38,833 nt of DNA from a virus, in IMG/VR virus record IMGVR_UViG_3300044638_006414, positions 1 through 38,833 of that record. The stretch is one strand, 5' to 3'. This document shows, piece by piece, positions 1-16,900 of the stretch. Position numbers and translations under genes: made by a program. How positions within the stretch are numbered: position 1 is the first letter of the stretch; every line of letters starts with the position of its first letter. The notes below the pieces were generated by a model, which made no database searches, was not told where the DNA came from, and was given only the letters and a program-made list of their open reading frames with translations.

Positions 1-1974
1 GCACCTGATAAATCTTTTGATGGTTGGACTTATTTCAATACCGAAGATCCTAATATTTTAAATTTTTTGATTTCTTATGTTAAAGAAAAAGATCCTGAAA
101 ATTACCATAAAATGCTTCCTGAAGAATATTTAACATCAATTAAACAAAAGGAAGAGGGTTTAACTGACTTACAACTTATTTCTACATTGGAAGGTGAAAG
201 AGCGACTAAATGGTTGAGTTATAAATATAATTTAAAAATTGGAGATGCTATAGTTAAGAAATTGGATTTATTAAAAGGTAATGTTACGGAATATTTAGGT
301 GATTGGTTTACAAATGGTGAAAAATCGTATTTAATTAGAAATAAAGAAAACTTGTTAGAACCAAGAGAATTGACGTGGATGGATTTTATTCGTAGTTACC
401 ATCAATTAGCAATTACTACCGAATACTCACCTAGTGAGTTTATTAATAGTTTTTTAGGTGGTGATAAAAATAAAGCTTTAGAGATTGGTAAAAATGATTT
501 AACTATATTATATTGGTTGGCTAGAGGTGGTAAATATATAGAGGATTTGGGTCGTTTGTATGGGGCAGAAAAACTGTTTAAATATATAATTAAGAATAAA
601 ACCAACCCTATATTTAGTTTAACAAGTATTTTACCTGGTTTATTAACAAACGAAACCCCAAAAAAGAGAAAAGAATTATATGAAATGGCGTATAAGTTTG
701 ATGGAAAAGATCGCAATTATTCTTTTGTTGATTATTTTCTTAGACAAGTACCTAAAGAAACTTTTATCGCTTCATTTAATAAAGGTGATGGTAATGAGAT
801 TGAACCTACTTCATACGGAAGAGCTTTTCTATACCTTAAACAAAATGAACCTGAAAGTATTGGTAGGGTATTTGAAGTTGGAGATATAAATAAAATATTC
901 AAATCACAGGAAAAGGCTTTTTCTTATTTCTTAAAAAATTATGGCGATTTTATTGGTGATTTATCTATTGAAAATCTAGTTGAGGTGTTCAATGTTGAAG
1001 TTCCTGAAAGTATATATGGTAAGTATATGTCTAATTGGGAAAAGAGAAATGTGACTAATTTATATGAAATAAACGAGGGTTCTAGAAAACTTTTTAATTT
1101 TATCCTTAAAAAGTTTTCATTTAAAAAATTGGCTGATATTATTGGATATGATGGTGTATTTAAATTATTTTGTATTGTTAATTTTAAAAAAGGTATAAAT
1201 TATATGATTGAAAATAAGGTTGGTGATATTAAAATTGATGATATTAAAATTAAAAATGGTGAACCAATTTTACTTGTTAATGATAGAACCGATTATGCGT
1301 TTTTATTTAAGGATGAAAATTTGGCTGAAAAAATATTAGGTGATAATTTAGATTGGGATCCATATAATGATACTTTTTATAATTGGTATGACGATGTATG
1401 GGGTTGCGTTAATTCAAAGTCAATCCAATATATTAAATCTTGGATTAAGGAGAATATTACTGAATATGAAAATGAGGAGGGTGAAAATATTGATATTGGT
1501 GATACATTCTTAAATGAAATATCTGATGATGATTTAGGTGGTATAATAGATGAGTATGATGAGTTTGGTGAATTAAAAAAAGAAATGGGTTGGGCTTACG
1601 ATAGCGCTTATAATTCCGCAGCTCAAAGTGATATTATTGAAAATACTCAAAACGAATTAGAAACTTATTTAGGTGAGTATAGTGGATATGAGCCATATAA
1701 AATAACTAAAAGGGTTAGGAATAGTGAAACTGGTGGATATGAATCAAAAGAATATACGGAATATAGATTTTTATATGATTTAGGTGATAGTTTGTATGAA
1801 ATATTACGTGATTATAGCATAAACAATTGGGGTTATACTGTTGACTACGACACATATTTTAGTTCGTTATTAAAAGAAAGTGAACCTAAAAAATTATATA
1901 TTGAAACAGAGTCTTATCCTGATAGTTTAGAAGTATGTGAAAATTTTAATGATGATTTACCGGGTAGAATATGA
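1..1974 (+). CDS. Large hypothetical protein, 5' end beyond the window
   Basis: The reading frame is open from the first base, so the gene starts upstream; 657 residues are visible. A TTG at 67 could serve as a start, but the uninterrupted sense codons before it make a truncated view more likely. I do not recognise a family. The protein is rich in Tyr, Asp, Glu and Lys, with a very acidic stretch around visible residues 480-530, and shows no obvious signal peptide, membrane segment or catalytic motif. Its TGA stop overlaps the ATG of the next gene (ATGA), so the two are probably translated together. Because that neighbour carries a possible capsid-targeting tag, this gene could belong to the same packaged-protein group; that is inference, since its own N-terminus is not visible. 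Confidence 0.8.
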   Translation, partial: APDKSFDGWTYFNTEDPNILNFLISYVKEKDPENYHKMLPEEYLTSIKQKEEGLTDLQLISTLEGERATKWLSYKYNLKIGDAIVKKLDLLKGNVTEYLGDWFTNGEKSYLIRNKENLLEPRELTWMDFIRSYHQLAITTEYSPSEFINSFLGGDKNKALEIGKNDLTILYWLARGGKYIEDLGRLYGAEKLFKYIIKNKTNPIFSLTSILPGLLTNETPKKRKELYEMAYKFDGKDRNYSFVDYFLRQVPKETFIASFNKGDGNEIEPTSYGRAFLYLKQNEPESIGRVFEVGDINKIFKSQEKAFSYFLKNYGDFIGDLSIENLVEVFNVEVPESIYGKYMSNWEKRNVTNLYEINEGSRKLFNFILKKFSFKKLADIIGYDGVFKLFCIVNFKKGINYMIENKVGDIKIDDIKIKNGEPILLVNDRTDYAFLFKDENLAEKILGDNLDWDPYNDTFYNWYDDVWGCVNSKSIQYIKSWIKENITEYENEEGENIDIGDTFLNEISDDDLGGIIDEYDEFGELKKEMGWAYDSAYNSAAQSDIIENTQNELETYLGEYSGYEPYKITKRVRNSETGGYESKEYTEYRFLYDLGDSLYEILRDYSINNWGYTVDYDTYFSSLLKESEPKKLYIETESYPDSLEVCENFNDDLPGRI

Positions 1975-3146
1975 AAGAACTAATAAGAAAAATATTAAGA
2001 GAAGAAATTATAACTGAGGCTCGTGTTAAAAAGAGTGATAGGGTTCAACTATATAAGGATGAAAACATTATTGTTGTTGTCCCACTAACACATATTGCAC
2101 TAAGAAAGTACGCAAATAGTTGTCAATGGTGTATTAACGATGATAAAGATGAGTGGGAAGATTACCATAAAGGTAAGCATGCGGTTATCATACAAAGAAA
2201 CCCCAAAAAAGTAAAAATAGGTATAACAGGAAACCCAATGCCAAGTGAAATATTTTTTATCAATAAATGGGATAATGGTGATAGTACTTTTCAAGATATA
2301 TGTCGTATATTAGGTTATGAATTTAAAGATGAGGATAATATGAAAGATTACTATCTTAATCTAACAAACAATATTAATAATTTTGGGACTAATATTGTTT
2401 ATTATTCACCAGAAAACAGTATATATGATATGGAGGACAACCTTCTATGGAATTTTAATTATGAAATATCTGACATTCCAAATGTAACTCCTGAAGTTAT
2501 AAAAATAATGAATGATTATTTATCTAACTCATTTTATAGTTTCACTCATCAACTCTCTGAACAAAAACTATTAAAGGAAGAGATCGAACACGGAGGTGGT
2601 ATTTTTTACCATAATTCTGATTACGATATTAAATCATTTATCCCTCAAGTCAAAAAAACAAAAAAAACTAATTTTTTATTTTTTAGTAACGAACCTAATA
2701 CTTTTATTGATAGAAAGTTTACTTACAAAGTTAAGTTGGAGTTCAACCCAAATAAAATCTTTAACACATTCAGACACATAACTAAGTATGGTATTAAATA
2801 TACCTTAGACGAATATAAAGGTGAGGTTTTGAGGTTATTTGAGAATAACACAGAATATTTCATTAAAGAATGGGAAAATACAGGGGTGGATAGTGTTGGT
2901 GAGGTTATGGAATATTATCTTGATGAGGGTGGTAATGAAGATGATATGGTTGGGTTATTATATTATTTTATCACAAAATGGAATGATTCGTGGGCAATAA
3001 TTGAAACTGATTTATTTTTAAATTTTATTGAATCTAAAGGTTATACTGGATTTGTAACACAAGAAGAAGGTTTAATAAACATCGCTTGTAAAGATTTCCT
3101 ATCAATAGATATAATTAATAAGCAAAATATGTGGGATATGAATTAA
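1971..3146 (+). CDS. Tagged protein: Trp-Cys-Ile module plus ADP-ribosyltransferase-like domain
   Basis: The 391-residue product has three visible parts. Residues 1-12 (MKELIRKILREE) form a basic amphipathic tag that recurs at 32631 and includes L-R-E, which fits the L/I-x-E cleavage rule of T4 prohead protease. Residues about 35-115 hold a module centred on Trp-Cys-Ile at 53-55, also present in the protein at 13527. Residues about 205-390 resemble an ADP-ribosyltransferase fold: Phe-Tyr-His at 212-214, Leu-Phe-Phe-Ser near 236-239, a K-V-K-L-x-F-N-P strand near 253-260, and a C-terminal Lys-Gly-Tyr-x-Gly turn followed by two strands. T4 Alt is a packaged ADP-ribosyltransferase with a cleaved N-terminal peptide, so an Alt-like injected effector is plausible. 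The catalytic Glu is not assigned, so activity is unproven. The gene overlaps its upstream neighbour as ATGA. Confidence 0.6.
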   Translation: MKELIRKILREEIITEARVKKSDRVQLYKDENIIVVVPLTHIALRKYANSCQWCINDDKDEWEDYHKGKHAVIIQRNPKKVKIGITGNPMPSEIFFINKWDNGDSTFQDICRILGYEFKDEDNMKDYYLNLTNNINNFGTNIVYYSPENSIYDMEDNLLWNFNYEISDIPNVTPEVIKIMNDYLSNSFYSFTHQLSEQKLLKEEIEHGGGIFYHNSDYDIKSFIPQVKKTKKTNFLFFSNEPNTFIDRKFTYKVKLEFNPNKIFNTFRHITKYGIKYTLDEYKGEVLRLFENNTEYFIKEWENTGVDSVGEVMEYYLDEGGNEDDMVGLLYYFITKWNDSWAIIETDLFLNFIESKGYTGFVTQEEGLINIACKDFLSIDIINKQNMWDMN

Positions 3147-3688: not shown

Positions 3689-3701
3689 TAAAAATAAATA
3701 C

Positions 3702-3732
3702 TTGTTTTTTAATAAATTATACTATATATTTG
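3702..3732 (+). promoter_or_regulatory. Bacteroidota-type promoter for the 3751 gene
   Basis: TTG at 3702-3704, a 20-base spacer, then TATATTTG at 3725-3732, matching the Bacteroidota primary sigma consensus (TTTG, about 20 bases, TAnnTTTG). The ATG follows 19 bases after the -7 element. The element runs on as TTTGTGGTA, as does the promoter at 37494. Confidence 0.65.
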
Positions 3733-3750
3733 TGGTAATTAAAAGAAGTT

Positions 3751-4230
3751 ATGAGAAGATTTGATATAACGAAAAAAATGGTAATGGTAAACGCTAAGAA
3801 TATTAAAGATATAAAGGGTTATATTAGTGATTATATTAGTAATAATGGTAATGTAAGATTATATATTGGTTGCGATTCAAAGCAATCTGGAGATTTTACA
3901 ACCTATGCGGTATCTGCTGTTCTTTATAAAAAAGGATTAGGTGGTCATGTTGTTTATTTTATGGAAAAAGTTCCAAGAATTAGGGATATGTTTACTAAAT
4001 TATGGGGTGAAGTAGAAAGAACAAAAGAGTTTTTAGAATATTTAGGTGATGATATGAAACCTTTTGTTGAGGAAGTTCATCTTGATCTTAACTCAAAACC
4101 CACACATAAATCAAATATGGTTTATGATGGTGGGATTGGTTTGATTAGTTCTATGGGGTATAAAGCAATTGGTAAACCTAATGGTTGGTGCGCTAGCTAT
4201 GTGAGTGATCGTGTCTTAAAAAATAAATAA
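3751..4230 (+). CDS. YkuK-type RNase H-fold protein (DUF458-like)
   Basis: The 159-residue product matches the YkuK/DUF458 family, which has an RNase H-like fold and no settled biochemical role. The first core strand ends in Tyr-Ile-Gly-Cys-Asp-Ser-Lys at 38-44, with Asp42 as the expected metal ligand. It is followed by a second strand (TYAVSAVLY) and a Gly-Leu-Gly-Gly turn. A helix around 81-99 carries Glu87, and His-Leu-Asp-Leu-Asn at 110-114 supplies a further acidic residue (Asp112). Nuclease activity is possible but unproven. It starts 19 bases after a host-type promoter and is followed 8 bases later by a phosphatase gene, so both are probably expressed early from one transcript. Confidence 0.75.
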   Translation: MRRFDITKKMVMVNAKNIKDIKGYISDYISNNGNVRLYIGCDSKQSGDFTTYAVSAVLYKKGLGGHVVYFMEKVPRIRDMFTKLWGEVERTKEFLEYLGDDMKPFVEEVHLDLNSKPTHKSNMVYDGGIGLISSMGYKAIGKPNGWCASYVSDRVLKNK

Positions 4231-4238
4231 TTTGTGAA

Positions 4239-4712
4239 ATGGTTAAAGTATTATCAAGGTTTTTATTTTGGGGTTTGTTAAAGAAACAAGGTTTAAATGA
4301 TAACAATGTTGAGGAATTGAATGATACATATTTTATATCAATTAATTCAACTGAAGGGAACGATAATCAACCTTATTTTGAAAAACAACATGCGAACGTA
4401 TTGACATTATATTTTGATGATTGTAATGAATATAAAAAACATCCTATAATTGGTTCTTCTGGTGGGTTCTATGAGCAAATACCTATGAGTGAAGAACAAG
4501 CGTTAGAAGTGATTAAATTCGTTGAAAAAATGGATAATAACTCTAATGTATATGTTCATTGTACTGCTGGTGTATCAAGAAGTGGTGCGGTTGGTGCTTT
4601 CATAAATGATTATTTTGGTAGGAGTTGGGATAAGTTTAAGTTTGATAATCCACAAGTGATACCAAATTCACACATATCTTCTTTATTAAAGAGGGTTTAC
4701 TACGAAAAATAA
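4239..4712 (+). CDS. Dual-specificity / tyrosine-type protein phosphatase
   Basis: The 157-residue product has the cysteine phosphatase signature H-C-T-A-G-V-S-R-S-G at residues 107-116, i.e. the HCx5R loop with nucleophile Cys108 and phosphate-binding Arg114. Asp60 or Asp61 about 47 residues upstream is well placed as the general acid. The length suits a compact dual-specificity phosphatase. It would remove phosphate from Tyr/Ser/Thr residues or from another small phosphoester; the substrate cannot be told from sequence. It is the second gene after the promoter at 3702 and ends inside a two-way terminator. A role in early host takeover is an inference from promoter type. Confidence 0.85.
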   Translation: MVKVLSRFLFWGLLKKQGLNDNNVEELNDTYFISINSTEGNDNQPYFEKQHANVLTLYFDDCNEYKKHPIIGSSGGFYEQIPMSEEQALEVIKFVEKMDNNSNVYVHCTAGVSRSGAVGAFINDYFGRSWDKFKFDNPQVIPNSHISSLLKRVYYEK

Positions 4713-4737
4713 AAAGGAGTTTTTACTCCTTTTTTTA
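4711..4737. terminator. Bidirectional intrinsic terminator
   Basis: AAAAAGGAGT pairs with ACTCCTTTTT across a short T-rich loop, followed by a T run on the plus strand and by the complement of the A run on the minus strand. It sits between two convergent genes whose stop codons lie in its flanks, so it can end both transcripts. Confidence 0.85.
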
Positions 4738-5502
4738 TTTACAATTGATTTCATTTATAACAAAATCAATTCCTCTTTCTTTGTAATCATACTCCCAAAT
4801 TGTAAGAACAATAAAACCCTTACTTTCACCTAAAATTGTTTTTTGTTTATCATATTCCCATAATTCTTTTGCTGTCATACCCTTTTTTTTATTGATATAA
4901 TCACTTTTATATATCTTAGGATTACAATGCCAGTAATCACCATTAAACTCAATAAGAAGGTTTTTATTGGGTATGTAGAAATCAAATAACTTACCATCTA
5001 TATTAAAGTTTATTTTAATATCTTTGTAATGTTTTTTAAGTAGAGAAAATATTTTATTTTGTGATTTTGATGTTGGTGAAAACTTTAATTTACCTGATTT
5101 GTGTTTATTATACATATTATTTTTACATATATCCCTAACATGTTCTAATTTACCATCCGACCAACTTTTTTTAAGTCCATCAGACACTTTTTTTCTATTT
5201 TCAGATTTACTCATTGAATTATTTTCACCAATACCCTTACCTTTTCTTGATTTGGAAATTATTTTTAATGTATCTTTTGTGTGTTTTTTACCTGCAAATG
5301 GATTGCCATCACCTGTTTGGGATATTACTTTACACTTATGGCATTTAGTATTATTTTTTATTGAAGTTTTTATGTTCCTAATTAAATAATATTTGGCGTG
5401 TTTTTGATTACCATTGGTTGAATGTGTTATTTTATCCCCACAAATAGGACAATTTCTATCGGCGTAATACCTACCATTTTCGTATGTTACTTCTATATCC
5501 AT
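4735..5502 (-). CDS. Vsr-like mobile (homing-type) endonuclease with zinc finger and NUMOD3-like repeats
   Basis: The 255-residue product has three regions. Residues 18-57 contain Cys-Pro-Ile-Cys and Cys-His-Lys-Cys, forming a probable zinc-binding site. Residues about 64-115 are basic and carry NUMOD3-like pieces (G-N-P-F-A-G-K-K-H and similar), which bind DNA in homing endonucleases. The C-terminal half, from about 147, is a Vsr/PD-(D/E)xK-like nuclease: F-D-F-Y-I-P with Asp174, then L-L-I-E-F-N-G-D-Y-W-H with Glu185, Asp189 and His192. This matches the EDxHD class of phage homing endonucleases. It is free-standing rather than inside an intron. Its start codon overlaps the stop of the small upstream DNA-binding gene, so the two are translationally coupled. 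Confidence 0.8.
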   Translation of the reverse strand: MDIEVTYENGRYYADRNCPICGDKITHSTNGNQKHAKYYLIRNIKTSIKNNTKCHKCKVISQTGDGNPFAGKKHTKDTLKIISKSRKGKGIGENNSMSKSENRKKVSDGLKKSWSDGKLEHVRDICKNNMYNKHKSGKLKFSPTSKSQNKIFSLLKKHYKDIKINFNIDGKLFDFYIPNKNLLIEFNGDYWHCNPKIYKSDYINKKKGMTAKELWEYDKQKTILGESKGFIVLTIWEYDYKERGIDFVINEINCK

Positions 5503-5675
5503 TATATTATGAAATCTTCATTTATTTTATTGTTTTTTAATAAATCCCTATAAATTAAATGTTCAATATACTTAGATTTATTCTTATGTAATTCACCCAT
5601 AATCTTATCTAATTCAGGGTTTAGAGTTATACTCACCTTAACTTTCTTTTTTTCGTCTTCTATCTTATTTCTCAT
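5502..5675 (-). CDS. Small ribbon-helix-helix DNA-binding protein
   Basis: A 57-residue ORF beginning with ATG at 5675. After a charged leader it has the strand KVKVSITLNPEL, then helix DKIMGELHKNK, then S-K-Y-I-E-H-L-I-Y-R-D-L-L, the order and spacing of a ribbon-helix-helix repressor of the Arc/CopG type. Its TAA stop shares bases with the ATG of the endonuclease gene (TAATG), so it is the first gene of a two-gene unit. By analogy with other mobile-element regulators it may repress its own promoter in the AT-rich divergent region 5676-5771 and so limit endonuclease expression. The fold assignment is from pattern; the regulatory role is inference. Confidence 0.7.
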   Translation of the reverse strand: MRNKIEDEKKKVKVSITLNPELDKIMGELHKNKSKYIEHLIYRDLLKNNKINEDFII

Positions 5676-5771
5676 ATTATATAAATACGCAAAAAAAATA
5701 AAAAAACAAGATTTTTATAGTATTTTTTTACAAATATTTATTTTTAGTGGTATCTTAGTTATATATAGTGT

Positions 5772-5864
5772 ATGAAAAATAACGAAATTACGGGAGAACA
5801 AAAAAACAACCCTGGCAAGATCAAGATGTTGGTGACAACTATTGATGGTGCTGGGGTTGGTTGA
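5772..5864 (+). other. Displaced N-terminal codons of the glycosyltransferase (frame change)
   Basis: An ATG at 5772 opens a 30-codon frame ending in TGA at 5862. Its last part, M-L-V-T-T-I-D-G-A-G, looks like the first strand and glycine loop of a GT-B glycosyltransferase, and the next gene in the -1 frame starts just where this one stops without such a strand. The downstream frame is only open from 5846, so the change must lie between 5846 and 5861, which includes a GGGG run at 5853-5856. One extra base there would join the two frames. Confidence 0.6.
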
Positions 5865-7024
5865 ATAAAGGTGCTTACAGAATGAGATGGCCTCATATAC
5901 ATTTACAAGAGATGTTTCAAGATGATATCCATATAGATATTATTGATATATCTGACTTTACGGATATTACAAGATATAAAGATTATAATATTATATTTTG
6001 TCATAGAAGTTTAACCCCTGATATTGGTGCAACTCCAGAAATATATAAAAGATTAAAACAACAAAACCCAAATCAAATTATTATTGGTGATATTGATGAT
6101 CATTGGTTGGTTGATCCATCGCACGGATTGTATCAATTAATAAAACACCAGCAAATAGATAAGAAAATTGTTGAAAATCTTAGGGTGTTTGATTATGTAA
6201 CTACTACTAATAATTATTTTGCTTCTAAGATTAGAATGTATAATAAGAATGTGGTTATATTCCCAAATGCTGTAAATCCAAGAGATAGACAATTCATACC
6301 TAATAGAGAGGAAAATGATAAAATTGGTATTGGTTATTTAGGTGGTTCATCACATTTAAAGGATTTGCAATTATTACAAGGTGTAACAAATGTTCTATCA
6401 GGTGATAATTCTATTATGGGGAAGATACAATTTGTATTATGTGGATTTGATTTAAGGGGGACAAAAACAACCATAAATTCTCAAACTGGGGAACAAACCC
6501 AAGAACCTATTAAGCCGCATGAAACGGTGTGGTATGATTATGAAAAAATTGTAACAGATAACTATAAGATAATTTCACCTCAATATAAAAACTTTTTAGA
6601 AAGGTTTACTCAAGGTACTTACGATGAAAAGAATGAACCATATAGAAGAAGATGGACTTTACCGATTAACAAATACGCCATAAATTATAATTACTTTGAC
6701 ATTTCATTAGCTCCTTTGATAGAAACTGAGTTTAATAGGGTTAAGTCATCGTTAAAGGTAATGGAAGCTGGTTTTCATAAAAAAGCGTTAATTGCGTCAC
6801 ATATTGAACCATATTCGGAAGATATTATTGATGGAAAGAATGGGTTTTTGGTTGAGCAAAAAAGAAGTCATAAAGATTGGCATAAAACAATTAAAAAGTT
6901 GGTTAATAATCCTCAACAAATAAAAGATATGGGTGAAGCGTTATATGAAACTGTAAAAGAAAAATATAACTTAGATTTCGTATCAAAAAATAGGATGGAG
7001 TTTTATAAATCAGTTTTGAAATGA
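5861..7024 (+). CDS. GT-B fold glycosyltransferase (GT4-like)
   Basis: The frame from TTG 5861 encodes 387 residues; the likely true N-terminus is the displaced piece at 5772. The N-terminal half contains I-I-I-G-D-I-D-D-H-W near residues 77-86 and ends in a strand with F-P-N-A-V-N, typical of GT4 proteins. The C-terminal half opens with I-G-I-G-Y-L-G-G-S and carries L-K-V-M-E-A-G-F-H-K-K-A near 306-317 followed by N-G-F-L-V, the usual nucleotide-sugar binding region of the family. It would transfer a sugar to a phage or host acceptor, such as virion protein, modified DNA or surface glycan; the acceptor cannot be read from sequence. Its TGA overlaps the ATG of the capsid-fragment gene (ATGA). 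A pseudogene, a programmed frameshift and a base-calling error are all possible. Confidence 0.75.
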   Translation: MNKGAYRMRWPHIHLQEMFQDDIHIDIIDISDFTDITRYKDYNIIFCHRSLTPDIGATPEIYKRLKQQNPNQIIIGDIDDHWLVDPSHGLYQLIKHQQIDKKIVENLRVFDYVTTTNNYFASKIRMYNKNVVIFPNAVNPRDRQFIPNREENDKIGIGYLGGSSHLKDLQLLQGVTNVLSGDNSIMGKIQFVLCGFDLRGTKTTINSQTGEQTQEPIKPHETVWYDYEKIVTDNYKIISPQYKNFLERFTQGTYDEKNEPYRRRWTLPINKYAINYNYFDISLAPLIETEFNRVKSSLKVMEAGFHKKALIASHIEPYSEDIIDGKNGFLVEQKRSHKDWHKTIKKLVNNPQQIKDMGEALYETVKEKYNLDFVSKNRMEFYKSVLK

Positions 7025-7236
7025 TATCAATAAACCAATACTTTAAAGAAAAAAAAAGTAAGGTAAAAATTAAAGTTAGATGGACGCCTGAAATGGCTCA
7101 AGATATTAGCGCATTCCATAACATTGACGCAGAAGCTGAATTAATTAGAATTTTATCTGAAGAAATCGCGGCGGAAATTGATATGAGGATAATAAGGAAT
7201 ATGAGATTAAATTACGGAACAATAAGTGTTAATTAA
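7021..7236 (+). CDS. Stand-alone fragment resembling gp23 major capsid protein
   Basis: A 71-residue product. Residues about 13-60 (S-K-V-K-I-K-V-R-W-T-P-E-M-A-Q-D, then A-F-H-N-I-D-A-E-A-E-L and I-L-S-E-E-I-A-A-E-I-D) align closely with the internal T4 gp23 segment that reads A-Q-D-L-R-A-V-H-G-M-D-A-D-A-E-L followed by I-L-A-T-E-I. Only this helix-turn-helix piece of the roughly 520-residue capsid protein is present. It begins with its own ATG overlapping the glycosyltransferase stop, and its TAA overlaps the start of the next gene (TAATG), so it is translated as part of a tight operon and does not look like random debris. A full capsid gene presumably lies elsewhere in the genome. Function unknown. 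Confidence 0.7.
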   Translation: MISINQYFKEKKSKVKIKVRWTPEMAQDISAFHNIDAEAELIRILSEEIAAEIDMRIIRNMRLNYGTISVN

Positions 7237-7448
7237 TGAGAAGTTTAAGATATTTAAAAAATAGGGAAAAACCTTTATTTGATACAAACAACACACCTAA
7301 TTTTACATTAACACCTATTAACCATATTGGTGTAAGTACAATTAGTGTTAATAGTGTTCTTAGAGTGACTGGTTTACCGAACAGTCCAATAGGATTGACT
7401 GAAGGTGATGTTTGGCGAGATGATAATGGGTTTTTAAGAATTGTTTGA
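7236..7448 (+). CDS. Small virion-like protein with short beta C-terminus
   Basis: A 70-residue protein starting with an ATG that overlaps the preceding stop. The N-terminus is basic (M-R-S-L-R-Y-L-K-N-R). The C-terminal 30 residues, G-L-P-N-S-P-I-G-L then G-D-V-W-R-D-D-N-G-F-L-R-I-V, resemble the short beta repeat that ends many small phage structural proteins, where a Trp-Asn/Arg-Asp turn precedes a hydrophobic terminal strand. The words T-I-S-V-N appear both here and at the end of the preceding protein, which may reflect a local duplication. A capsid or tail decoration role is an inference; no family is recognised with certainty. Confidence 0.55.
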   Translation: MRSLRYLKNREKPLFDTNNTPNFTLTPINHIGVSTISVNSVLRVTGLPNSPIGLTEGDVWRDDNGFLRIV

Positions 7449-7479
7449 TTTTGTAAATGTTTTTTAGTAGAATTAAACT

Positions 7480-8496
7480 ATGGTAAAAACACTAATAATA
7501 GATGGTAATTATCTATTAAAAAGAGGTACTAAAGGTGCTAAAAATGTTATATTTAATGGGGATAAGATAGGTGGGTTATATCAGTTCATCATTACAATAA
7601 AAATGATGATAAATAAAATATTTCCGGATCGTGTGGTTGTATTTTGGGATGGTGAATACTCTAAGGATATTAGAAGAACATTTTACCCTGAATACAAAAT
7701 ACAACGAGAGGAGATAAATAATAAAATTGATAAAGACTATCAATTTAACATTCAAAAAGTTAAATCCCAATATTATTGCGAGGAATTATATTTAAGACAA
7801 TTTGAGGACGAGGGTTCTGAGGCTGATGATTGCATGGCTTATTATTGTTTAAACACCCCAAATGAGTACAAATATGTATATACAAATGATAGGGATATAT
7901 TACAACTAATAAGTAGCAATACTGAGGTTTTTTTAGCCGACAAAAGAGATTTTGTAAATGAAAAAAATTGGTCTAAGTATTTAGATTATACTCATAAAAA
8001 TGTATCTTTAGTAAAAGTTTTGACAGGTTGTAATTCAGATAACATAGCGGGTGTTTATGGTATGGGAGAACCAACATTATTTAAGTTATTTCCTGAGTTG
8101 ATAAAAGAAGAAAAAACATTAGAATGGGTTATTGAAAAGGGGAAACAATTATTACCTGAATCCAGAGGAAGAGAAGCGTCGGTATTACGTAATTTAATTA
8201 ATGGTAAATCAAAGCATGGTGTAATGGGTGAAACTTTATACATAACAAATAAAAAGATAATTGATTTAAGTCAACCATTAGTGACAGATAAAGTTAAAGA
8301 AAGAATTAATGATGAATTGATAAATGGTGTATTAAACCCTGAAGGTAGGGATTATAAAGTATTAATGAAACAAATGATTAATGATGGTATCTATTCATAT
8401 ATGCCAAAGTCAGATTCAGGGTTTATTGATTTTTTCAGACCATTTTATATTATTATGGAGAAAGAAAAAAAACTATATAAAAAAGCAATATTATGA
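7480..8496 (+). CDS. rnh: 5'-3' exonuclease / flap endonuclease (T4 RNase H-like)
   Basis: The 338-residue product is a FEN-family nuclease that would remove RNA primers and 5' flaps during phage replication. The acidic metal site is nearly complete: Asp8 in L-I-I-D-G-N-Y, Asp57 in F-W-D-G-E, Glu114/Asp116/Asp117 in S-E-A-D-D, Asp137 and Asp139 in N-D-R-D, and Asp187 in S-D-N-I-A-G-V-Y-G-M-G, the helix-hairpin-helix region that contacts DNA. Length is close to T4 RNase H (305 residues). It overlaps the dUTPase gene by the ATGA arrangement and lies upstream of the replicative helicase, consistent with a replication operon. The gene symbol follows T4 usage and should be read as a family assignment. 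Confidence 0.88.
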   Translation: MVKTLIIDGNYLLKRGTKGAKNVIFNGDKIGGLYQFIITIKMMINKIFPDRVVVFWDGEYSKDIRRTFYPEYKIQREEINNKIDKDYQFNIQKVKSQYYCEELYLRQFEDEGSEADDCMAYYCLNTPNEYKYVYTNDRDILQLISSNTEVFLADKRDFVNEKNWSKYLDYTHKNVSLVKVLTGCNSDNIAGVYGMGEPTLFKLFPELIKEEKTLEWVIEKGKQLLPESRGREASVLRNLINGKSKHGVMGETLYITNKKIIDLSQPLVTDKVKERINDELINGVLNPEGRDYKVLMKQMINDGIYSYMPKSDSGFIDFFRPFYIIMEKEKKLYKKAIL

Positions 8497-8915
8497 GAGT
8501 AAGATTTAAAAAATTAAGTGAAAAGGCGGTGACACCACAATACGCTAAAATGGGTGATGCTGGTATGGATTTGGTGGCGACTTCATTAGTAAAGGGTGAA
8601 GTTTATTATGAGTATGGAACGGATATTGCCGTTGAAATACCGGAGGGTTATGTTGGGTTATTATTTCCAAGATCATCAATAAGTAAAACAAAACAAATAT
8701 TAGCAAATCACGTTGGGGTTGTGGATAGTAATTACAGAGGTGAAATTAAGTTTAGATTTAAAAAATTAACTTGGGATAATGGTGAAGTCTATAATGCGGG
8801 TGATAGGATTGGACAATTAATTATTATGCCATATCCTACAATTGAATTAGAGGAAGTGAATGAGTTAAGTGAAACCAATAGAGGTAAAAATGGTTTTGGT
8901 TCAACAGGGAATTAA
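8493..8915 (+). CDS. dut: Deoxyuridine triphosphatase (dUTPase)
   Basis: The 140-residue protein is a trimeric-type dUTPase that converts dUTP to dUMP and pyrophosphate, keeping uracil out of DNA and supplying dUMP for thymidylate. All five motifs are visible: G-D-A-G-M-D-L at 21-27 (metal-binding Asp26), P-R-S-S-I-S at 59-64, N-H-V-G-V-V-D-S-N-Y-R-G at 72-83 (catalytic Asp78, base-stacking Tyr81), G-D-R-I-G-Q-L at 103-109, and the C-terminal R-G-K-N-G-F-G-S-T-G at 130-139 that closes over the phosphates. Length is typical of the trimeric family. It starts inside the stop of the exonuclease gene and is followed by replication genes. Confidence 0.95.
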   Translation: MRVRFKKLSEKAVTPQYAKMGDAGMDLVATSLVKGEVYYEYGTDIAVEIPEGYVGLLFPRSSISKTKQILANHVGVVDSNYRGEIKFRFKKLTWDNGEVYNAGDRIGQLIIMPYPTIELEEVNELSETNRGKNGFGSTGN

Positions 8916-8944
8916 AAGTTTAACAATTTAAAAAAAAATAAAAT

Positions 8945-9433
8945 ATGAGTAGTATCGGAAACGATAAATTTAAAACACGATTTGAATTTGTGTTAAAACT
9001 GAACAAAGATATTATTGTTCAGAGATTCTTCAATGTAAGGAAGTTTAATGAAAAAGCAGCTAAAAGTTTGTCTATGAAAGACACTACCGATGAAGTTGTG
9101 AGTATCGTTAAAAAAGGTATTATGAAGAAAAGTATTGATCACCTTTGGAATAATTATGATCCTTATGGGTTTTATTATGACGATGATGGTGAGATTGTAA
9201 TTAAGGATATACCGAAATATAATCTTAATGACATTAAAGATAATTTTACGTTTACTGTAAAAGTGGATGGTAAGCCTGTGTCGGAAAGTATGTTTTCGGG
9301 TTATGGATTATGTATCCCTGTATTTTTTGAAAACGGACAAAAAATTAGGTACATTGTAGATATTAAAGATTCTATCTCTACAATAATATCAAAGTTACAA
9401 ACAGCATTACAAATTACGGAAGAAACAGAATAA
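8945..9433 (+). CDS. Conserved-looking protein of unknown function in the replication operon
   Basis: A 162-residue soluble protein with no recognised domain. The N-terminal part (T-R-F-E-F-V-L-K-L-N near 11-20) looks like a beta strand pair; residues 60-100 are acidic and Tyr-rich (Y-D-P-Y-G-F-Y-Y-D-D-D-G); the C-terminus is a long helix. It lies one base upstream of the helicase gene and 29 bases after dUTPase, so a role linked to replication, for example a helicase partner, is possible from context only. There are no cysteine clusters, P-loop or membrane segments. Confidence 0.65.
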   Translation: MSSIGNDKFKTRFEFVLKLNKDIIVQRFFNVRKFNEKAAKSLSMKDTTDEVVSIVKKGIMKKSIDHLWNNYDPYGFYYDDDGEIVIKDIPKYNLNDIKDNFTFTVKVDGKPVSESMFSGYGLCIPVFFENGQKIRYIVDIKDSISTIISKLQTALQITEETE

Positions 9434-9434
9434 T

Positions 9435-10823
9435 ATGAATGATAAAGAAAATTTTGGGTATTTAGGTGATAACTTCCAATCGAAGGTTCTTGCACAGATA
9501 TTTACTGACAGAACATTTGGTGAGAACTATATTAATATTATTGATCCAAAATATTTTGATAATCAATATTTTAGGGTTATCACTCAATATATTAAAGAGT
9601 ATTATATTAAGTATGATAGTATACCAACAATAGATGCTATTGAAAACATTATTAATTCGGAGGCTTCATCAGAGGTAACAAGAAGAGTTCTTATTGACGA
9701 AATAGGTGTTATTAAATCAGCTGAATTGGCTGATAGTAGTTTTATTCAGCATAAAGTTATTAATTTTTGTAAGCAACAAGAATTAAAAAAAGCAATTCAA
9801 AAAGTGCAGAAGATACTAGAGAAAGGTGATTTTGAATCGTATGATAAGTGTGAGGATATTATTAAGAAAGCTATTAACATATCAGAAGATAAAGATAATG
9901 GTGAAGATGCTTTGGATAATATTGAGAATGTATTAGAGAATGATGAAAGAAAACCTTTACCATTTGGTATTGGGGGATTTGATAGATCGACTGGTGGTGG
10001 TTTAGGATCGGGTGAAGTTAGTTTAGGTATAGCACCATTAGGGGTTGGAAAATCTACATGCGCCACTAAAATCGCCAATACTAATTACAATTCAGATAAA
10101 ACGGTTTTCCATATATTCTTTGAAGATAAAATTAGGGATATTAAACGTAAACATTACGCCTGTTGGACAGGTATCCCAATTAATGATTTAAAAGAGAATA
10201 AATCGGCAGTTATTGACATAATTGAAGGTATTAAAGGTAAGGGGAAATTAGTTTTAAAGAAGTTTCCTTCATATGGTACAACGTTTGAAAAAATCCGTAA
10301 TTGGGTTAAAAAACAAAGACAAAATAATATTGTACCAGATATGATTGTTGTGGATTATTTAGATTGTATTCAATTATCTGAGGATAGTTGGACAGCTGAA
10401 GGTGTTTTGGTAAGACAGTTTGAAACATTAGCTGAGGAACTTAAAATACCTATCCACTTATTTACTCAGGGGGGTAGACAATCAATTGGACAAGAAATTG
10501 TGACATCCGATATGGGTGGTGGATCAATTAAAAAATCACAATTTGCTCACTTTTTATATTCTATTGGTAGAACAATGGAACAACAAGAAAATGGTAGGGC
10601 TAATATGTCAATATTGAAGAACAGATTTGGACCTGCTGGTGTTGTATTTGAGAACGCATTATTTGATAATGGTTCAGTACAAATTGATACTGATAATAGT
10701 ACTGAAGAACTTACTTTTTTAGGTGTTGAGAACAAAAAAGAAGAGAAGAAAAGAAATAGGGTTAACGATATCCTACAAAAAAAACAAAAAGAAAAAGTTA
10801 CAGGTGATGAAGAAACCATCTAA
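9435..10823 (+). CDS. Replicative DNA helicase, DnaB / T4 gp41-like
   Basis: The 462-residue product is a hexameric RecA-fold helicase that unwinds DNA at the phage fork. An N-terminal helical domain (residues about 10-125) resembles the DnaB-type primase-interacting domain. The motor domain starts near 175 with P-F-G-I-G-G-F-D-R-S-T-G-G-G-L; Walker A is G-I-A-P-L-G-V-G-K-S-T with Lys206, and Walker B is M-I-V-V-D-Y-L-D with Asp307. A sensor-like Gln in F-T-Q-G-G-R near 338-343 and G-G-G-S-I-K-K-S near 355-362 follow. The last 50 residues are very charged. Length is close to T4 gp41 (475). It closes the operon that begins at 7480. Confidence 0.9.
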   Translation: MNDKENFGYLGDNFQSKVLAQIFTDRTFGENYINIIDPKYFDNQYFRVITQYIKEYYIKYDSIPTIDAIENIINSEASSEVTRRVLIDEIGVIKSAELADSSFIQHKVINFCKQQELKKAIQKVQKILEKGDFESYDKCEDIIKKAINISEDKDNGEDALDNIENVLENDERKPLPFGIGGFDRSTGGGLGSGEVSLGIAPLGVGKSTCATKIANTNYNSDKTVFHIFFEDKIRDIKRKHYACWTGIPINDLKENKSAVIDIIEGIKGKGKLVLKKFPSYGTTFEKIRNWVKKQRQNNIVPDMIVVDYLDCIQLSEDSWTAEGVLVRQFETLAEELKIPIHLFTQGGRQSIGQEIVTSDMGGGSIKKSQFAHFLYSIGRTMEQQENGRANMSILKNRFGPAGVVFENALFDNGSVQIDTDNSTEELTFLGVENKKEEKKRNRVNDILQKKQKEKVTGDEETI

Positions 10824-10832
10824 GGTAAAAAA

Positions 10833-10920
10833 TATTTTCCCTTAATTATTTATAAGTGACTAATATTGATTTTATTAGGTTTTCTTTAAAAAATAATTGG
10901 GGGATTTTTTATTTTCCCTT
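10833..10920. repeat. Pair of 11-base direct repeats upstream of the reductase genes
   Basis: TATTTTCCCTT occurs at 10833-10843 and again at 10910-10920, inside the 159-base gap between helicase and reductase. The gap is about 80% A+T and has no ORF. The copies start 77 bases apart, about seven helical turns, so they could be paired operator sites for the reductase genes; this is an inference. Confidence 0.4.
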
Positions 10921-10982
10921 GTATTTTTCTAAAAAATAACATATTTATATAAACAATAAAAAAATTAAAAAACGATAAAAAA

Positions 10983-11657
10983 ATGAGTAAGAATGGACTT
11001 CAATTAGCGAGTGATTTAAAGTATTATTTAGATTATTCAAGGTGGATTGACGATGAAAATAGGACTGAAACTTGGGAAGATTCGGTTGAAAGAGTTATGG
11101 GTATGCACAAAGTTAAATATTCACAATTTTTAACTAACCCGAGATTTATTGAATTATTTAATAAGGCTGAAGGGGCTTATAAAGATAAATTAGTATTGGG
11201 TTCTCAAAGGGCATTACAATTTGGAGGTGATCCGATTATTAGGCATAATGCTAGAATGTATAATTGTACCAGTACCTACGTAAATAGGGTAAAATGTTTC
11301 CAAGAGATAATGTATTTGTTATTATGTGGTTGTGGTGTGGGTTTTTCTGTACAACATAGACACATTAACAATTTACCTAATCTAACAAAAAGAACTAAAG
11401 GAACAAAAACATTTATAGTTCCTGATTCAATAGAAGGATGGAGTGATGCTTTTGGTATTCTAATATCTTCATATGTAGTAGATGGTGCTGAAACACCATT
11501 TCCTGAATATCAAGGGTATGAAATTAGATTTGATTTAAGTTTAATTAGACCTGAGGGTGCTATGATTAGTGGTGGATTTAAAGCTCCTGGACCTGAGGGG
11601 TTAAGAAAGTCACTTTTAAAGAGTGAAGAATTAATTGAAAGGAAGTTAATTCAATGA
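10983..11657 (+). CDS. Class II ribonucleotide reductase, N-terminal part (split gene)
   Basis: The 224-residue product matches the first third of adenosylcobalamin-dependent ribonucleoside-triphosphate reductase. It holds the substrate-site entry R-M-Y-N-C-T-S-T-Y with Cys95 (corresponding to one of the active-site redox cysteines), the glycine-rich L-L-C-G-C-G-V-G-F-S-V-Q near 107-118, and G-A-M-I-S-G-G-F-K-A-P-G-P near 192-204. It stops at I-E-R-K-L-I-Q, where unsplit relatives continue into the active-site barrel. The TGA overlaps the ATG of the second part (ATGA), in a -1 relation. The two chains would have to assemble to reduce nucleotides for phage DNA synthesis. Confidence 0.85.
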   Translation: MSKNGLQLASDLKYYLDYSRWIDDENRTETWEDSVERVMGMHKVKYSQFLTNPRFIELFNKAEGAYKDKLVLGSQRALQFGGDPIIRHNARMYNCTSTYVNRVKCFQEIMYLLLCGCGVGFSVQHRHINNLPNLTKRTKGTKTFIVPDSIEGWSDAFGILISSYVVDGAETPFPEYQGYEIRFDLSLIRPEGAMISGGFKAPGPEGLRKSLLKSEELIERKLIQ

Positions 11658-13249
11658 AACCTATTATGGCTTATGACTTTATTATGTATATGTCAGATGC
11701 TGTATTATCAGGTGGTGTTAGAAGAAGTGCGACAATTTGTTTATTCTCACCGGAAGATGATGAAATGATGAATGCTAAGGTTGGTAATTGGTATTATGAA
11801 AACCCACAAAGAGGTAGATCAAATAATTCGGCGGTAATTAATAGAAATACCACAACTAAAGAACAATTCAATAGGATTTTCACATCAATCAAAGATTTTG
11901 GTGAACCGGGATTCTATTTTGTGGATGATGAAGATCAAGTAACTAATCCTTGTGTTGAAATTGGATTATACCCTCAAATTGAAATTAATGGTAAAACTGA
12001 ATATGGGTTTCAAGGATGTAATTTAACTGAGGGTAATGGTGGTATGTGTACAACAGAAGATAAGTTTTATGAGGCGTGTGAGTCTTTAGCTATCTTAGGT
12101 ACATTGCAAGCTGGTTATGCTGATTTCCCATATTTAGGTGATATAACAGAATCAATCTTCAGGGGAGAGGCTTTATTAGGTTGTTCATTTACAGGTTGGA
12201 TGGCTAATCCACATATTATGATGAATCCTGAAATTCAAAGAAAAGGTGCTGAAATCGTTAAAAAAGTAAATCAGGAGTTGGCTGAAATTATAGGTATTAA
12301 TCCAGCGTCGAGAACAACTTGTGTTAAACCTTCTGGAAATGCTTCAGTTTTATTAAAATCACCTTCTGGTTGTCACGGAGATCATGCTCCAAGATACTTT
12401 AGGGTAATGCAAATTAATAAACAATCTGAAATTGGTAAGTATTTGAATGAAGAACATTCATATTTGATTGAAGAATCTGTATGGAGTTCTAATAAAACAG
12501 ATTATGTGGCGTATATTCCAGTAATGGCTAATAAGAATGCTAAATTTAAAAAGGATTTAGTTGGTATGAATCAATTAGAAGTGGTTAAAACAATTCAAAA
12601 CAATTGGGTTGAATATGGAACAAATCACGAAAGAAATGTTCAACCGTATTTAAGACATTCGGTTTCAAACACCGTTGAATTGGATTATTCTGATTACGAT
12701 ATGGTGGAAGATTATTTGTTTAATAATAGATATGATTTCGCGGCTGTTTCATTCTTACCTTTAACAGGTGATAAAGATTTCAACCAAGCACCATTTACAT
12801 CGGTATTATCAGGTGAGGAATTATATAATAAGTATGATGATGCGGCTTTCTTCGCTTCAGGTTTAATTGTTGATGGTTTACATGCTTTTGATGGTAATTT
12901 ATGGGAAGCTTGTGATTATGTTAATAAAAGAGATTTAAAATTACAAGGAACAAGGGTTGAAGGTTTAATTAAGAAAGATTGGATTAGAAGAGCTAAACAA
13001 TTCGCTAAGAGATTCTTCAAAGGAGATGTTAAAGAAATGATACTATGTCTTAAAGATTTACATTTATACCACAAATGGGTTAGAGTAAATCGTGAATTAA
13101 AACAAAGGGATTTTAACTTTAATACAGCCATTAAAAAACCTGAATATGTTAATATGGATACTATGGGAGCTGTTTCTTGTAGCGGACCTAACGGATGTGA
13201 AATACCAGCCGATATAATGGAAGCTATGAGATCTTCTATAACTTCTTAA
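11654..13249 (+). CDS. Class II ribonucleotide reductase, C-terminal part (split gene)
   Basis: The 531-residue product continues the reductase. It opens with M-K-P-I-M-A-Y-D-F-I then L-S-G-G-V-R-R-S-A-T-I-C-L-F-S, a hallmark of the class II family. The catalytic loop N-P-C-V-E at 98-102 gives the thiyl-radical Cys100 and Glu102, and Cys122 in Q-G-C-N-L-T is the likely second redox cysteine. Near 227 is the conserved K-P-S-G-N-A-S loop. The C-terminal S-C-S-G-P-N-G-C pair near 515-522 matches the swinging-arm cysteines that reload the active site. All key residues are kept in one chain or the other, which argues for function. Reduction depends on vitamin B12 coenzyme, probably from the host. 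A strong terminator follows. Confidence 0.88.
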   Translation: MKPIMAYDFIMYMSDAVLSGGVRRSATICLFSPEDDEMMNAKVGNWYYENPQRGRSNNSAVINRNTTTKEQFNRIFTSIKDFGEPGFYFVDDEDQVTNPCVEIGLYPQIEINGKTEYGFQGCNLTEGNGGMCTTEDKFYEACESLAILGTLQAGYADFPYLGDITESIFRGEALLGCSFTGWMANPHIMMNPEIQRKGAEIVKKVNQELAEIIGINPASRTTCVKPSGNASVLLKSPSGCHGDHAPRYFRVMQINKQSEIGKYLNEEHSYLIEESVWSSNKTDYVAYIPVMANKNAKFKKDLVGMNQLEVVKTIQNNWVEYGTNHERNVQPYLRHSVSNTVELDYSDYDMVEDYLFNNRYDFAAVSFLPLTGDKDFNQAPFTSVLSGEELYNKYDDAAFFASGLIVDGLHAFDGNLWEACDYVNKRDLKLQGTRVEGLIKKDWIRRAKQFAKRFFKGDVKEMILCLKDLHLYHKWVRVNRELKQRDFNFNTAIKKPEYVNMDTMGAVSCSGPNGCEIPADIMEAMRSSITS

Positions 13250-13268
13250 AATTTAAAATGTGGTTATT

Positions 13269-13299
13269 AAAAGGCGGTTATTATACCGCCTTTTTTTTT
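13269..13299 (+). terminator. Intrinsic terminator after the reductase operon
   Basis: AAAAGGCGGT and ACCGCCTTTT form a perfect 10-base stem with a 6-base loop (TATTAT), followed by further T residues. The GC core is far above the local base composition. It lies 19 bases after the reductase stop. Confidence 0.92.
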
Positions 13300-13320
13300 A
13301 ATTTTTAAAGGGGGAAAATG

Positions 13321-13352
13321 TTTGTCTTTACTAAATTATTTTAATATATTTT
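13321..13352 (+). promoter_or_regulatory. Possible Bacteroidota-type promoter after the terminator
   Basis: TTTG at 13321-13324, a 20-base spacer, and TATATTTT at 13345-13352, one base off the TAnnTTTG consensus. It directly follows the reductase terminator and could drive the 13357 and 13527 genes. Transcription would begin at or within a few bases of the ATG at 13357, so that ORF would be nearly leaderless. Confidence 0.4.
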
Positions 13353-13356
13353 ATAT

Positions 13357-13521
13357 ATGAAAACATTATTATTTAGTTCAATATTATTCTGTATAATACA
13401 AACAAAAGAAGAAAGGGTGGGATATTATAAATATACTATCTGTAATGACACACTCAATTATACGGTATTTAGTAATACCGAATATAATGTTAATGATACT
13501 ATATACCTTAAAAATAAATAA
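13357..13521 (+). CDS. Small hypothetical protein with hydrophobic N-terminus
   Basis: A 54-residue ORF from ATG 13357 to TAA 13521, ending 5 bases before the next gene. Residues 1-15 (M-K-T-L-L-F-S-S-I-L-F-C-I-I-Q) look like a short signal peptide or membrane anchor; the rest is polar, Tyr/Asn/Thr-rich and probably beta. No lipobox matches the cysteine at 12. A tiny exported or membrane-bound phage protein is possible. The near-consensus promoter lies so close upstream that leaderless translation would be needed. It fills most of the gap between terminator and the next gene, which supports it being real, but the evidence is modest. Confidence 0.45.
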   Translation: MKTLLFSSILFCIIQTKEERVGYYKYTICNDTLNYTVFSNTEYNVNDTIYLKNK

Positions 13522-13526
13522 CAAAT

Positions 13527-14669
13527 ATGAATAATTTAGAAATTGATTCAAAGTACAAAAAGTGGTTAAATGTAGTGTGTAAGGATGGTGATTTACACCC
13601 ATCAATTAATTTTATGTGTCAAAAACATAAGAGATTAATTGATAAAATACCAGTTGGATTTAGAGATATTTTTTCATTTAAAACAATTAATGATTTTATC
13701 TTTTATGTTGATGGGTTAGAATCTGAAACAGAGAGGGAAGAAAAAATTAAAAATGATGGTTCTAAAGTAATTTATGAAAATCAAGATTTTATTGTAAAAA
13801 GGGTTTTTACTATGGAGGCTATGAGTTTATATGGTAAAGGAACTAAATGGTGTATATCCTCTGAAATAGGTAATCAATGGGATAGATATACAGAAAATGG
13901 TGATATATTTTTCTTGGTATTATCTAAAAAACTAACATATGAAAGTCAATTTAGTAAGTTTATTGTTCAGTTAACAAGTGACAAAAGATTATTTATTTGG
14001 GATAAAAGTGACAATTCTTACAATTCTAATATTTTTGATTTTCTCAGTATAAAATCAAATCTATTTTTAGATGACTATAATTTATCAATAATAGACAGAT
14101 TATTTAATTTACATATAGATAATGATGTTTTAAAAATATTATCTAATAATAATGCAATAATTGCTGGTGGTGCATTAACATCTTTAATATTAGATGAAAA
14201 AATAAATGACTTTGATATTTGGTTTTCAAATGAAAAGGATTATGAAAAAGCCATCAATGATATGAGTAATTTAGATTATGTATTAAAAAAAAGTTTTAGT
14301 AAGTATACTACTATAAATGCTATAACATTCACTATTGAAAATAAAAAATATCAAATTATAAACCCATCTAAATATTCATTTGGTGATGTTAATGAAATAA
14401 TAAATAAATTTGATTTTACTTGTGTGATGTGTGGTGTTGATATTAACAAAAAACAAATGGTTTATGATGAAAGATTTTTTAAAGATATTAAAACTAAACA
14501 AATAGTTATAAATAAAGCGTTAAAGGCGCCGGCATCTTTAATTTCCAGAATTATTAAATACACTAAAAAAGGTTATAGGGTTTCTATTGATACTGAAAAA
14601 GATATTTTAAGAATATTATCTAAAGTAAGTGAAAAAGAAATAGATGACGCTATATTAACGATGTACTAA
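13527..14669 (+). CDS. Trp-Cys-Ile module fused to a nucleotidyltransferase-like domain
   Basis: The 380-residue protein has two halves. Residues about 80-165 form the Trp-Cys-Ile module: M-E-A-M-S-L-Y-G-K-G-T-K-W-C-I-S-S with Trp108-Cys109-Ile110, then W-D-R-Y and a run of beta strands; it is related to the module in the protein at 1971. Residues about 200-370 resemble a polymerase-beta-type nucleotidyltransferase: I-I-A-G-G-A-L-T-S-L near 211-220, then N-D-F-D-I-W-F with Asp228 and Asp230 as the metal pair, followed by a strand-helix pattern ending in F-D-F-T-C-V-M-C-G-V-D. Nucleotide or nucleic-acid transfer is a reasonable guess; the target is unknown. It converges with the baseplate gene at 14670 with no gap and no terminator between. 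Confidence 0.65.
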   Translation: MNNLEIDSKYKKWLNVVCKDGDLHPSINFMCQKHKRLIDKIPVGFRDIFSFKTINDFIFYVDGLESETEREEKIKNDGSKVIYENQDFIVKRVFTMEAMSLYGKGTKWCISSEIGNQWDRYTENGDIFFLVLSKKLTYESQFSKFIVQLTSDKRLFIWDKSDNSYNSNIFDFLSIKSNLFLDDYNLSIIDRLFNLHIDNDVLKILSNNNAIIAGGALTSLILDEKINDFDIWFSNEKDYEKAINDMSNLDYVLKKSFSKYTTINAITFTIENKKYQIINPSKYSFGDVNEIINKFDFTCVMCGVDINKKQMVYDERFFKDIKTKQIVINKALKAPASLISRIIKYTKKGYRVSIDTEKDILRILSKVSEKEIDDAILTMY

Positions 14670-16472: not shown

Positions 16473-16846
16473 TATATTGTTATATTAATTGTATCTTGCT
16501 TACCGAATATTGAAGCATTATTTATATATTTAATTTGAAGATTTACATTTCTTTCGTTATTTGGATCTGTGTTTATCACTATATCCGTTATTTGTAATTG
16601 TGGGAAATATCTAGTAACAGCGGTTTTTACTTCTTCTTTCATAGCGTCATATGTGGTATTATCATTCGGATTAAATATGAAATTCCTAAGATTTGTTCCA
16701 AAATCTGGATTATAATACCTCTCACCTTTATTAGTTAATAATAAATGTGTTAAAGATGAACGTATTTCATCATTAGTTGTTGTTGTTTGCTTAACAAATT
16801 CAGTTTCACTTTCTGTGAATGGAAAAAATATACCTATACTAGCCAT
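16472..16846 (-). CDS. Baseplate wedge protein gp25-like (GPW/gp25 family)
   Basis: The 124-residue protein is a GPW/gp25 family member, the small wedge subunit that starts sheath assembly on the baseplate. It shows the family layout: an N-terminal strand (I-G-I-F-F-P-F), a helix with N-D-E-I-R-S-S-L-T-H-L-L-L-T, then the signature T-N-K-G-E-R-Y-Y-N-P-D-F-G-T-N-L-R at 38-54, with E42 and R43 of the conserved G-E-R, and a C-terminal beta pair around I-T-D-I-V-I. T4 gp25 is 132 residues. The overlap with gp6 and the two TATAAATA boxes upstream suggest late, coupled expression. Confidence 0.93.
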   Translation of the reverse strand: MASIGIFFPFTESETEFVKQTTTTNDEIRSSLTHLLLTNKGERYYNPDFGTNLRNFIFNPNDNTTYDAMKEEVKTAVTRYFPQLQITDIVINTDPNNERNVNLQIKYINNASIFGKQDTINITI

Positions 16847-16862
16847 ATTTAATAAATATATT

Positions 16863-16894
16863 TATTTATATTTTTTGAAAATCTTTTATTTATA
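16863..16894 (-). promoter_or_regulatory. Two T4-type late promoter boxes (TATAAATA) before gp25
   Basis: The minus strand reads TATAAATA at 16870-16863 and at 16894-16887, in the 54-base gap between divergent structural genes. The nearer copy lies 16 bases before the gp25 start, a good distance for a T4-type late promoter. High A+T content makes chance matches fairly likely. Confidence 0.4.
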
Positions 16895-16900
16895 TATATA

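Follow-up and report, generated by a model that had tools for sequence, protein, structure and literature searches.

Small genes built from pieces of the gp23 major capsid protein in a group of T4-like phages

The stretch of viral DNA analysed here (IMG/VR record IMGVR_UViG_3300044638_006414, 38,833 nucleotides, hereafter the window) carries a 71-residue frame, ORF A, between a glycosyltransferase gene and another small frame, ORF C (Table 1). The ATG of ORF A lies inside the glycosyltransferase stop (ATGA) and its TAA inside the start of ORF C (TAATG); it is a stand-alone gene overlapping both neighbours, as the preliminary description had claimed. The stop overlap suggests that ORF A is probably translationally coupled to the glycosyltransferase, for which an ATG at 5882 agrees with the start in relatives. 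ORF C ends in ~25–30 residues that resemble the C-terminal ~29 of a repeat-rich, 2025-aa protein in the relative G007 (E = 2.9e-4); the G007 protein itself has a sub-threshold Pfam beta-roll match. A pattern scan of IMG/VR for the window's ORF C found none, with patterns that missed relatives later located by position, and no counterpart of the G007 ORF C was found in named phages. Just 5' of the glycosyltransferase lies a homing-endonuclease-like ORF (4735–5502, minus strand; Vsr-like C-terminal part by eye). Farther on, at 10983–13249, ORFs of 224 and 531 aa with an ATGA overlap correspond to a single 755-aa ORF in G007 and G008, ribonucleotide-reductase-like by eye; the split in the window is either real or a sequencing frameshift.

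Table 1 Features of the ORF A locus and of the gp23-related genes in G038
Feature	Position	Strand	Remarks
Group 1 glycosyltransferase, 5' of ORF A	5861..7024	+	Pfam, PHROG
ORF A, mini-gp23 gene, 71 aa	7021..7236	+	Own ATG and TAA; Pfam Gp23 1.6e-13; orthologues in 6 relatives
ORF A leader, residues 1–10, MISINQYFKE	7021..7050	+	Most degenerate copy
gp23-derived segment of ORF A, residues 16–62, KIKVRWTPEMAQDISAFHNIDAEAELIRILSEEIAAEIDMRIIRNMR	7066..7206	+	Pfam, PDB, alignment to gp23
ORF C, 70 aa; variable middle part after the leader MRSLRYLKNR	7236..7448	+	Found in all 11 genomes
ORF C C-terminal module, RVTGLPNSPIGLTEGDVWRDDNGFLRIV	7359..7445	+	Resembles end of 2025-aa G007 protein
RNase H/flap-endonuclease-like gene (by eye), closes the variable interval	7480..8496	+	87–92% identical in relatives
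G038 mini-gp23, 96 aa	302925–303215		2e-13
G038 small gp23-like ORF, 157 aa	12980–13453		1.1e-3, weak
G038 full gp23	124971–126746		Same 335-kb contig as the mini-genes

Residues 16–62 of ORF A match positions 149–195 of the 376 in the Pfam Gp23 profile (PF07068; E = 1.6e-13, 51 bits, curated cut-off 24.4 bits), the major head protein family PHROG 138 is matched at E = 5.8e-13, and the PDB entry of T4 gp23 (3e-5) places residues 10–59 at ~260–308 of the precursor. The proposed likeness to gp23 therefore stands, with a different extent: the homologous stretch is 47 residues long and 72% identical to the gp23 of its own lineage (residues 392–438 of the full-length protein on contig L003), not 48 of 71. 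By the general layout of the HK97 fold, this segment is probably the long P-domain helix. The AlphaFold model of ORF A (seven sequences) has predicted helices at low confidence (pLDDT 57). With 47 of 376 profile positions in 71 residues, ORF A falls far short of a near-full-length HK97-fold chain, and it is missing the region near residues 55–62 in which 11 of 11 full-length gp23s have I-N-E-A (I-Y-E-A in one); by analogy with T4, this I-x-E/A site of the gp23 propeptide would be the cleavage site. On sequence grounds, ORF A is derived from gp23 and is not a major capsid protein.

The window has no gp23 match besides ORF A. Close relatives were found in IMG/VR via the two genes that flank the interval, the glycosyltransferase and the RNase H-like gene, and 11 genomes, the window included, span the stretch between them. 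ORF A is present at the same junction in seven of them and cleanly absent, between the same flanking genes, in the other four. The gene order is glycosyltransferase-A-C in the window, glycosyltransferase-A-B-C, with a second mini-gene, in G003, G004, G005, G007 and G008, glycosyltransferase-(A+B fused, 114 aa)-C in G010, and glycosyltransferase-C in G001, G002, G009 and G011. The IMGVR records named in this work are G001, 3300034061_002955; G002, 3300032334_001104; G003, 3300042565_001982; G004, 3300042863_001147; G005, 3300042868_007803; G007, 3300020159_002019; G008, 3300023179_003795; G009, 3300043466_003273; G010, 3300048580_000535; G011, 3300032320_001733; G021, 3300048580_000375; G022, 3300043437_000549; and G038, 3300042391_000634. 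In G008 (L089:2258–3445), a 395-aa TnpB-like gene (IS605-type, by eye) lies between A and B, both of whose frames are intact.

The earlier statement that no other part of the capsid protein is present holds for the window only, since the relatives have more gp23 pieces as small genes and the group has a complete gp23. Mini-gene B (78–84 aa) contains the YAPYxPxQLxP...SRYASVQVN segment of the gp23 C-terminal region, with 75% identity to the group's gp23 over 53 residues; its G003 copy matches Pfam Gp23 at 9.4e-10 and includes a run, GYVYAPYVPLQLTPTMYNPFTFAPIKGIMTRYA, identical to full gp23. At a second locus, 24.8–25.4 kb in G007, two further small genes adjoin a conserved 261-aa gene: N, a gp23 N-terminal segment (Pfam 1.1e-5; gp23 HMM 1.2e-6), and a composite ORF that weakly resembles gp23 (gp23 HMM 0.011) and has no match in Pfam or PHROGs. 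Both are found in G007 and G021, and N in G022. The gp23 HMM, built from 11 phages and run on 2,508 small ORFs, matched the A, B and N mini-genes (1e-25 to 2e-4) and gave no match in the control genome G012. The mini-genes encode 71–123 aa, of which 47–63 residues correspond to parts of the about 615 residues of gp23: 47–62 around the long helix in A, the C-terminal region in B and the N-terminal region in N. The window and G003 copies are 72–77% identical to the gp23 of their own lineage over 43–53 residues. T4 gp23 (PF07068/PHROG 138) is the counterpart of the source of these segments; unlike it, the mini-genes lack most of the chain, stand as separate genes with a leader of their own and cannot form a shell. 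Chance or an assembly artefact is ruled out by seven independent contigs with the same junction and by the second locus, and derivation of the mini-genes from gp23 is hardly open to doubt. The earlier suggestion of a recruited helical hairpin fails to explain the family, because B is a C-terminal piece that is not a helical hairpin and N an N-terminal one.

Full-length gp23s of the same phage group (613–620 aa; L003, L231, L233, L227 and others) form a clade 87–96% identical to the L003 copy. No contig of the window's group has both mini-genes and full-length gp23, and gp23-bearing and junction-bearing contigs share a metagenome in six cases. With the 242-kb relative G012 as the yardstick for gene content, 39 of its proteins were matched only in the junction- or mini-bearing contigs, 14 only in the gp23-bearing ones and none in both; portal and terminase fell in the former set, gp23 in the latter. 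A single genome broken up into contigs explains this more simply than two phages sharing samples, which should duplicate core genes. The complementary gene content and shared metagenomes argue well for mini-genes and full-length gp23 in one genome. Fragmentation of gp23 throughout without a full gene, raised by G007 (109 kb) and G008 (98 kb), in which no full gp23 was seen, is ruled out by the complementary gene content. A full gp23 split with ORF A as its missing piece is ruled out for the group, as the segment is also present within its full-length gp23. In G008 (L164, 12751–17074), the terminase (gp17) and portal (gp20) genes stand together with gp21, gp22 and gp23 not alongside, unlike the usual T4 order.

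Among 37 other long T4-like phage contigs, 34 have gp23, and G038 also has small extra gp23 ORFs (Table 1), one of which the gp23 HMM finds at 1.4e-15. For that lineage the coexistence of mini-genes and full gp23 on one contig is settled. No clear mini-gp23 was found on 32 other gp23-bearing contigs, and T4 and 10 other named records have only full-size gp23 and gp24-like genes. Mini-gp23s are uncommon, yet not confined to the window. At ~3700–17500 of G038 (L346) lie ~20 small, mostly overlapping ORFs with the leader xFKF[FL] and mostly unrelated bodies, one or more of them gp23-like; this array is similar in architecture to the cassettes of the window's group but has another leader. G028 (L345) is a possible third lineage: two adjoining small ORFs at 94064–94485 resemble the gp23 N-terminal and helix segments, with E = 0.0015 for one, which is not significant alone and was not counted.

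By the Nei-Gojobori method, dN/dS ranged over 0.16–0.66 for A, 0.21–0.95 for B and 0.26–0.92 for C (about 0.3–0.7 for ORF C against the window copy), compared with 0.04–0.08 for the glycosyltransferase and 0.02–0.14 for the RNase H-like gene. These ratios, roughly 0.2–0.5 for the mini-genes and 0.03–0.1 for the neighbours, point to purifying yet relaxed selection on the mini-genes, with the neighbours more constrained. The mini-genes might be non-functional or only transiently translated gp23 scraps that arose through errors of copying or recombination in an insertion-tolerant gap. The relaxed constraint relative to the neighbours, the clean presence/absence, the dN/dS of 0.95 in the B pair G008-G005 and the TnpB-like gene that separates A from B in L089 would all fit such an origin. 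However, every frame is intact, even between the window and G007 types at a dS of about 1.3, where 22 of 36 synonymous and 42 of 165 nonsynonymous sites differ; the overlaps are conserved, one leader precedes three gp23 pieces that are not homologous to one another and lie at two loci, and G038 provides an independent case. We therefore regard scraps as improbable, and the mini-genes very probably encode functional proteins. Conservation in the relatives and selection both support the initial view of a capsid-segment-derived gene built into an operon. The dS to full gp23 is 0.4–1.5 for the window and G003 pieces and about 1 or more for the G007 type; this spread indicates pieces of differing age, some of which may have been more recently copied or converted from gp23. 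B, C, N and the majority of A copies begin with similar DNA of the ATGAGRA type, which could aid recombination between cassettes. A role of the pieces as donors for gp23 gene conversion is unlikely, as they are among the least variable parts of gp23.

The leader MRTI[NK]QY is common to the non-homologous pieces A, B and N and is missing from gp23. A orthologues begin MKTINQYLKE, MRTINQYIIE or MRTIKKYVED, and in the T4 record the internal proteins IPII and IPIII begin MKTYQEFIAE and IPI begins MKTFKEFTST. When residues 2–10 of 853 ORFs were scored against T4 IPII/III (BLOSUM62, untuned), mini-genes took ranks 1–7, representing about three independent families since they are interrelated, and the window copy ranked 70; on the first seven residues alone the mini-genes still scored high, but mixed with other ORFs. 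A T4-style pattern, devised with the family already known, picked out 14 ORF starts, all of gp23 mini-genes, and 0 of 3,630 internal Met positions. A DNA pattern covering MRTI[KN]QY recovered 38 stretches from IMG/VR, in which the gp23-like frames all came from the window's phage group and the rest were short frames or unrelated proteins. In the capsid-targeting sequence (CTS) of T4, residues 4 and 7 are most important for targeting and residues 8 and 10 for processing (PMC9026906), and the CTS packages nearly any cargo (PMC9026906; PMC7697877). All A leaders have a hydrophobic residue 4 and an aromatic residue 7. [IL]xE at residues 8–10 occurs in four of seven A copies and in no B or N, neither of which has Glu at position 10; with a baseline of 2.9% of all ORFs, a putative leader cleavage site is weakly indicated.

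The T4-CTS-like leader common to several gp23 mini-genes shifts the best reading to accessory cassettes resembling internal proteins, with cargo cut from gp23, to which we assign a probability of roughly 0.4. Each mini-gene consists of a short N-terminal leader and one piece of gp23, copied in this reading from a gp23 of the group. The mini-genes now evolve as intact genes of their own, in overlapping tandem cassettes subject to gain, loss and fusion. From its similarity to the T4 CTS, the leader may direct the products to the core of the prohead, as in T4 IPI-III. As a guess by analogy with capsid-sensing defences, the gp23 cargo would act either on the shell while it assembles or, once ejected, as a decoy on a gp23-recognising host factor. 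For packaging, cleavage, ejection and function of the products, the sequences offer faint hints.

The T4 internal proteins, which share a leader but have unrelated bodies, are injected to inhibit type IV restriction (PMC12373910). The mini-genes are similar in being small and accessory, with a common short N-terminal leader on divergent bodies at variable loci. They differ in that T4 bodies are basic and not derived from gp23, whereas the mini-genes lie among replication genes and their packaging is presumed; body pI is 5.3–8.4 (not strongly basic) for A and 9.7–10.0 (basic) for B and N. Against the internal-protein reading stand the degenerate window leader, the A bodies, the replication-gene location and the different leader in G038. 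The T4 internal proteins are late genes, and the location of the cassettes suggests early or middle expression.

That location is also compatible with an early, unpackaged decoy or inhibitor, in which gp23 pieces would blunt a host sensor or protease of new gp23 and the leader would be a mere translation-start module. Capsid-sensing defences exist, namely CapRel-SJ46 (PMC9712102) and staphylococcal Thoeris (PMC11312562), fast evolution with an intact frame and presence/absence variation fit an arms race, and other small genes in the group begin MRS[LIV]K without gp23 cargo. Yet such a decoy leaves the T4-CTS-specific likeness of the leader unexplained, has no known defence partner in the host, and at 47 residues would be a poor mimic of the hexameric capsid protein that Sau-Thoeris is reported to sense (PMC11312562). 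We consider it somewhat unlikely. It is doubtful, too, that phages of at least two lineages cut gp23 into small genes tagged with a head-packaging leader and use the pieces as decoys, delivered to the next host to counter immunity that senses capsids.

Two roles in assembly had been proposed in the preliminary description. Mini-gene products might act against competitor phages as dominant negatives in foreign gp23 shells, the pieces coming from some of the best conserved parts of gp23 and perhaps being able to co-fold with a related gp23. However, the best match is the gp23 of the own lineage (72–75% in the window and G003), so self-poisoning would be expected; the mini-genes are absent in four of 11 genomes, and the low-confidence model provides no structural evidence. 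Such interference is quite unlikely. Alternatively, they might help the phage assemble its own heads as shell or scaffold cofactors, such as P-domain mimics tuning capsid size or core-shell contact. Products of gp23 origin with a CTS-like leader would be expected at the core-shell interface, and loss of T4 IPIII slows head assembly (PMC9026906), but the mini-genes are dispensable, being absent in the same four genomes with the same flanking genes, and diverge rapidly, which makes this role very unlikely. A Lit/Gol reading was set aside, as the Gol region of gp23 presumably lies N-terminal to segment A.

Known precedents are gp23 paralogues and CTS-led internal proteins; mini-genes joining such a leader to parts of the same phage's capsid protein did not turn up in the open-access papers searched, and the titles and abstracts screened gave no description of gp23 fragments as separate genes. 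The T4 vertex protein gp24 is similarly a gp23-related second gene within one genome but is a full-length capsid protein (437-aa frame), compared with 71–123 aa for the mini-genes. CapRel-SJ46 and Sau-Thoeris, which are host systems, would give a reason for capsid-protein decoys, and no capsid-fragment decoy against either was found in the literature searched. Major capsid proteins are known to trigger bacterial immunity, which raises the question of how a phage can evade it while its essential shell stays unchanged. The mini-genes are concrete, easily expressed candidates here, being conserved capsid pieces with a leader like the T4 head tag, and they illustrate that accessory genes can arise piecewise from a virion gene. 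If active in head assembly, they would be natural minimal fragments of an HK97-fold protein; if decoys, they would be a counter-defence by molecular mimicry, carried in the virion and derived from the shell protein of the phage itself.

A second recurrent leader (MKKIKLTExDLxxIVKRVIxE, MKELIRKILREE) occurs in the window at 1971–3146 and 32631–33107 and on many ORFs in G007 and G008. It stands on otherwise unrelated proteins, is often followed by KKGKLFIPRxIDER, and is a candidate for a second head-targeting or processing signal.
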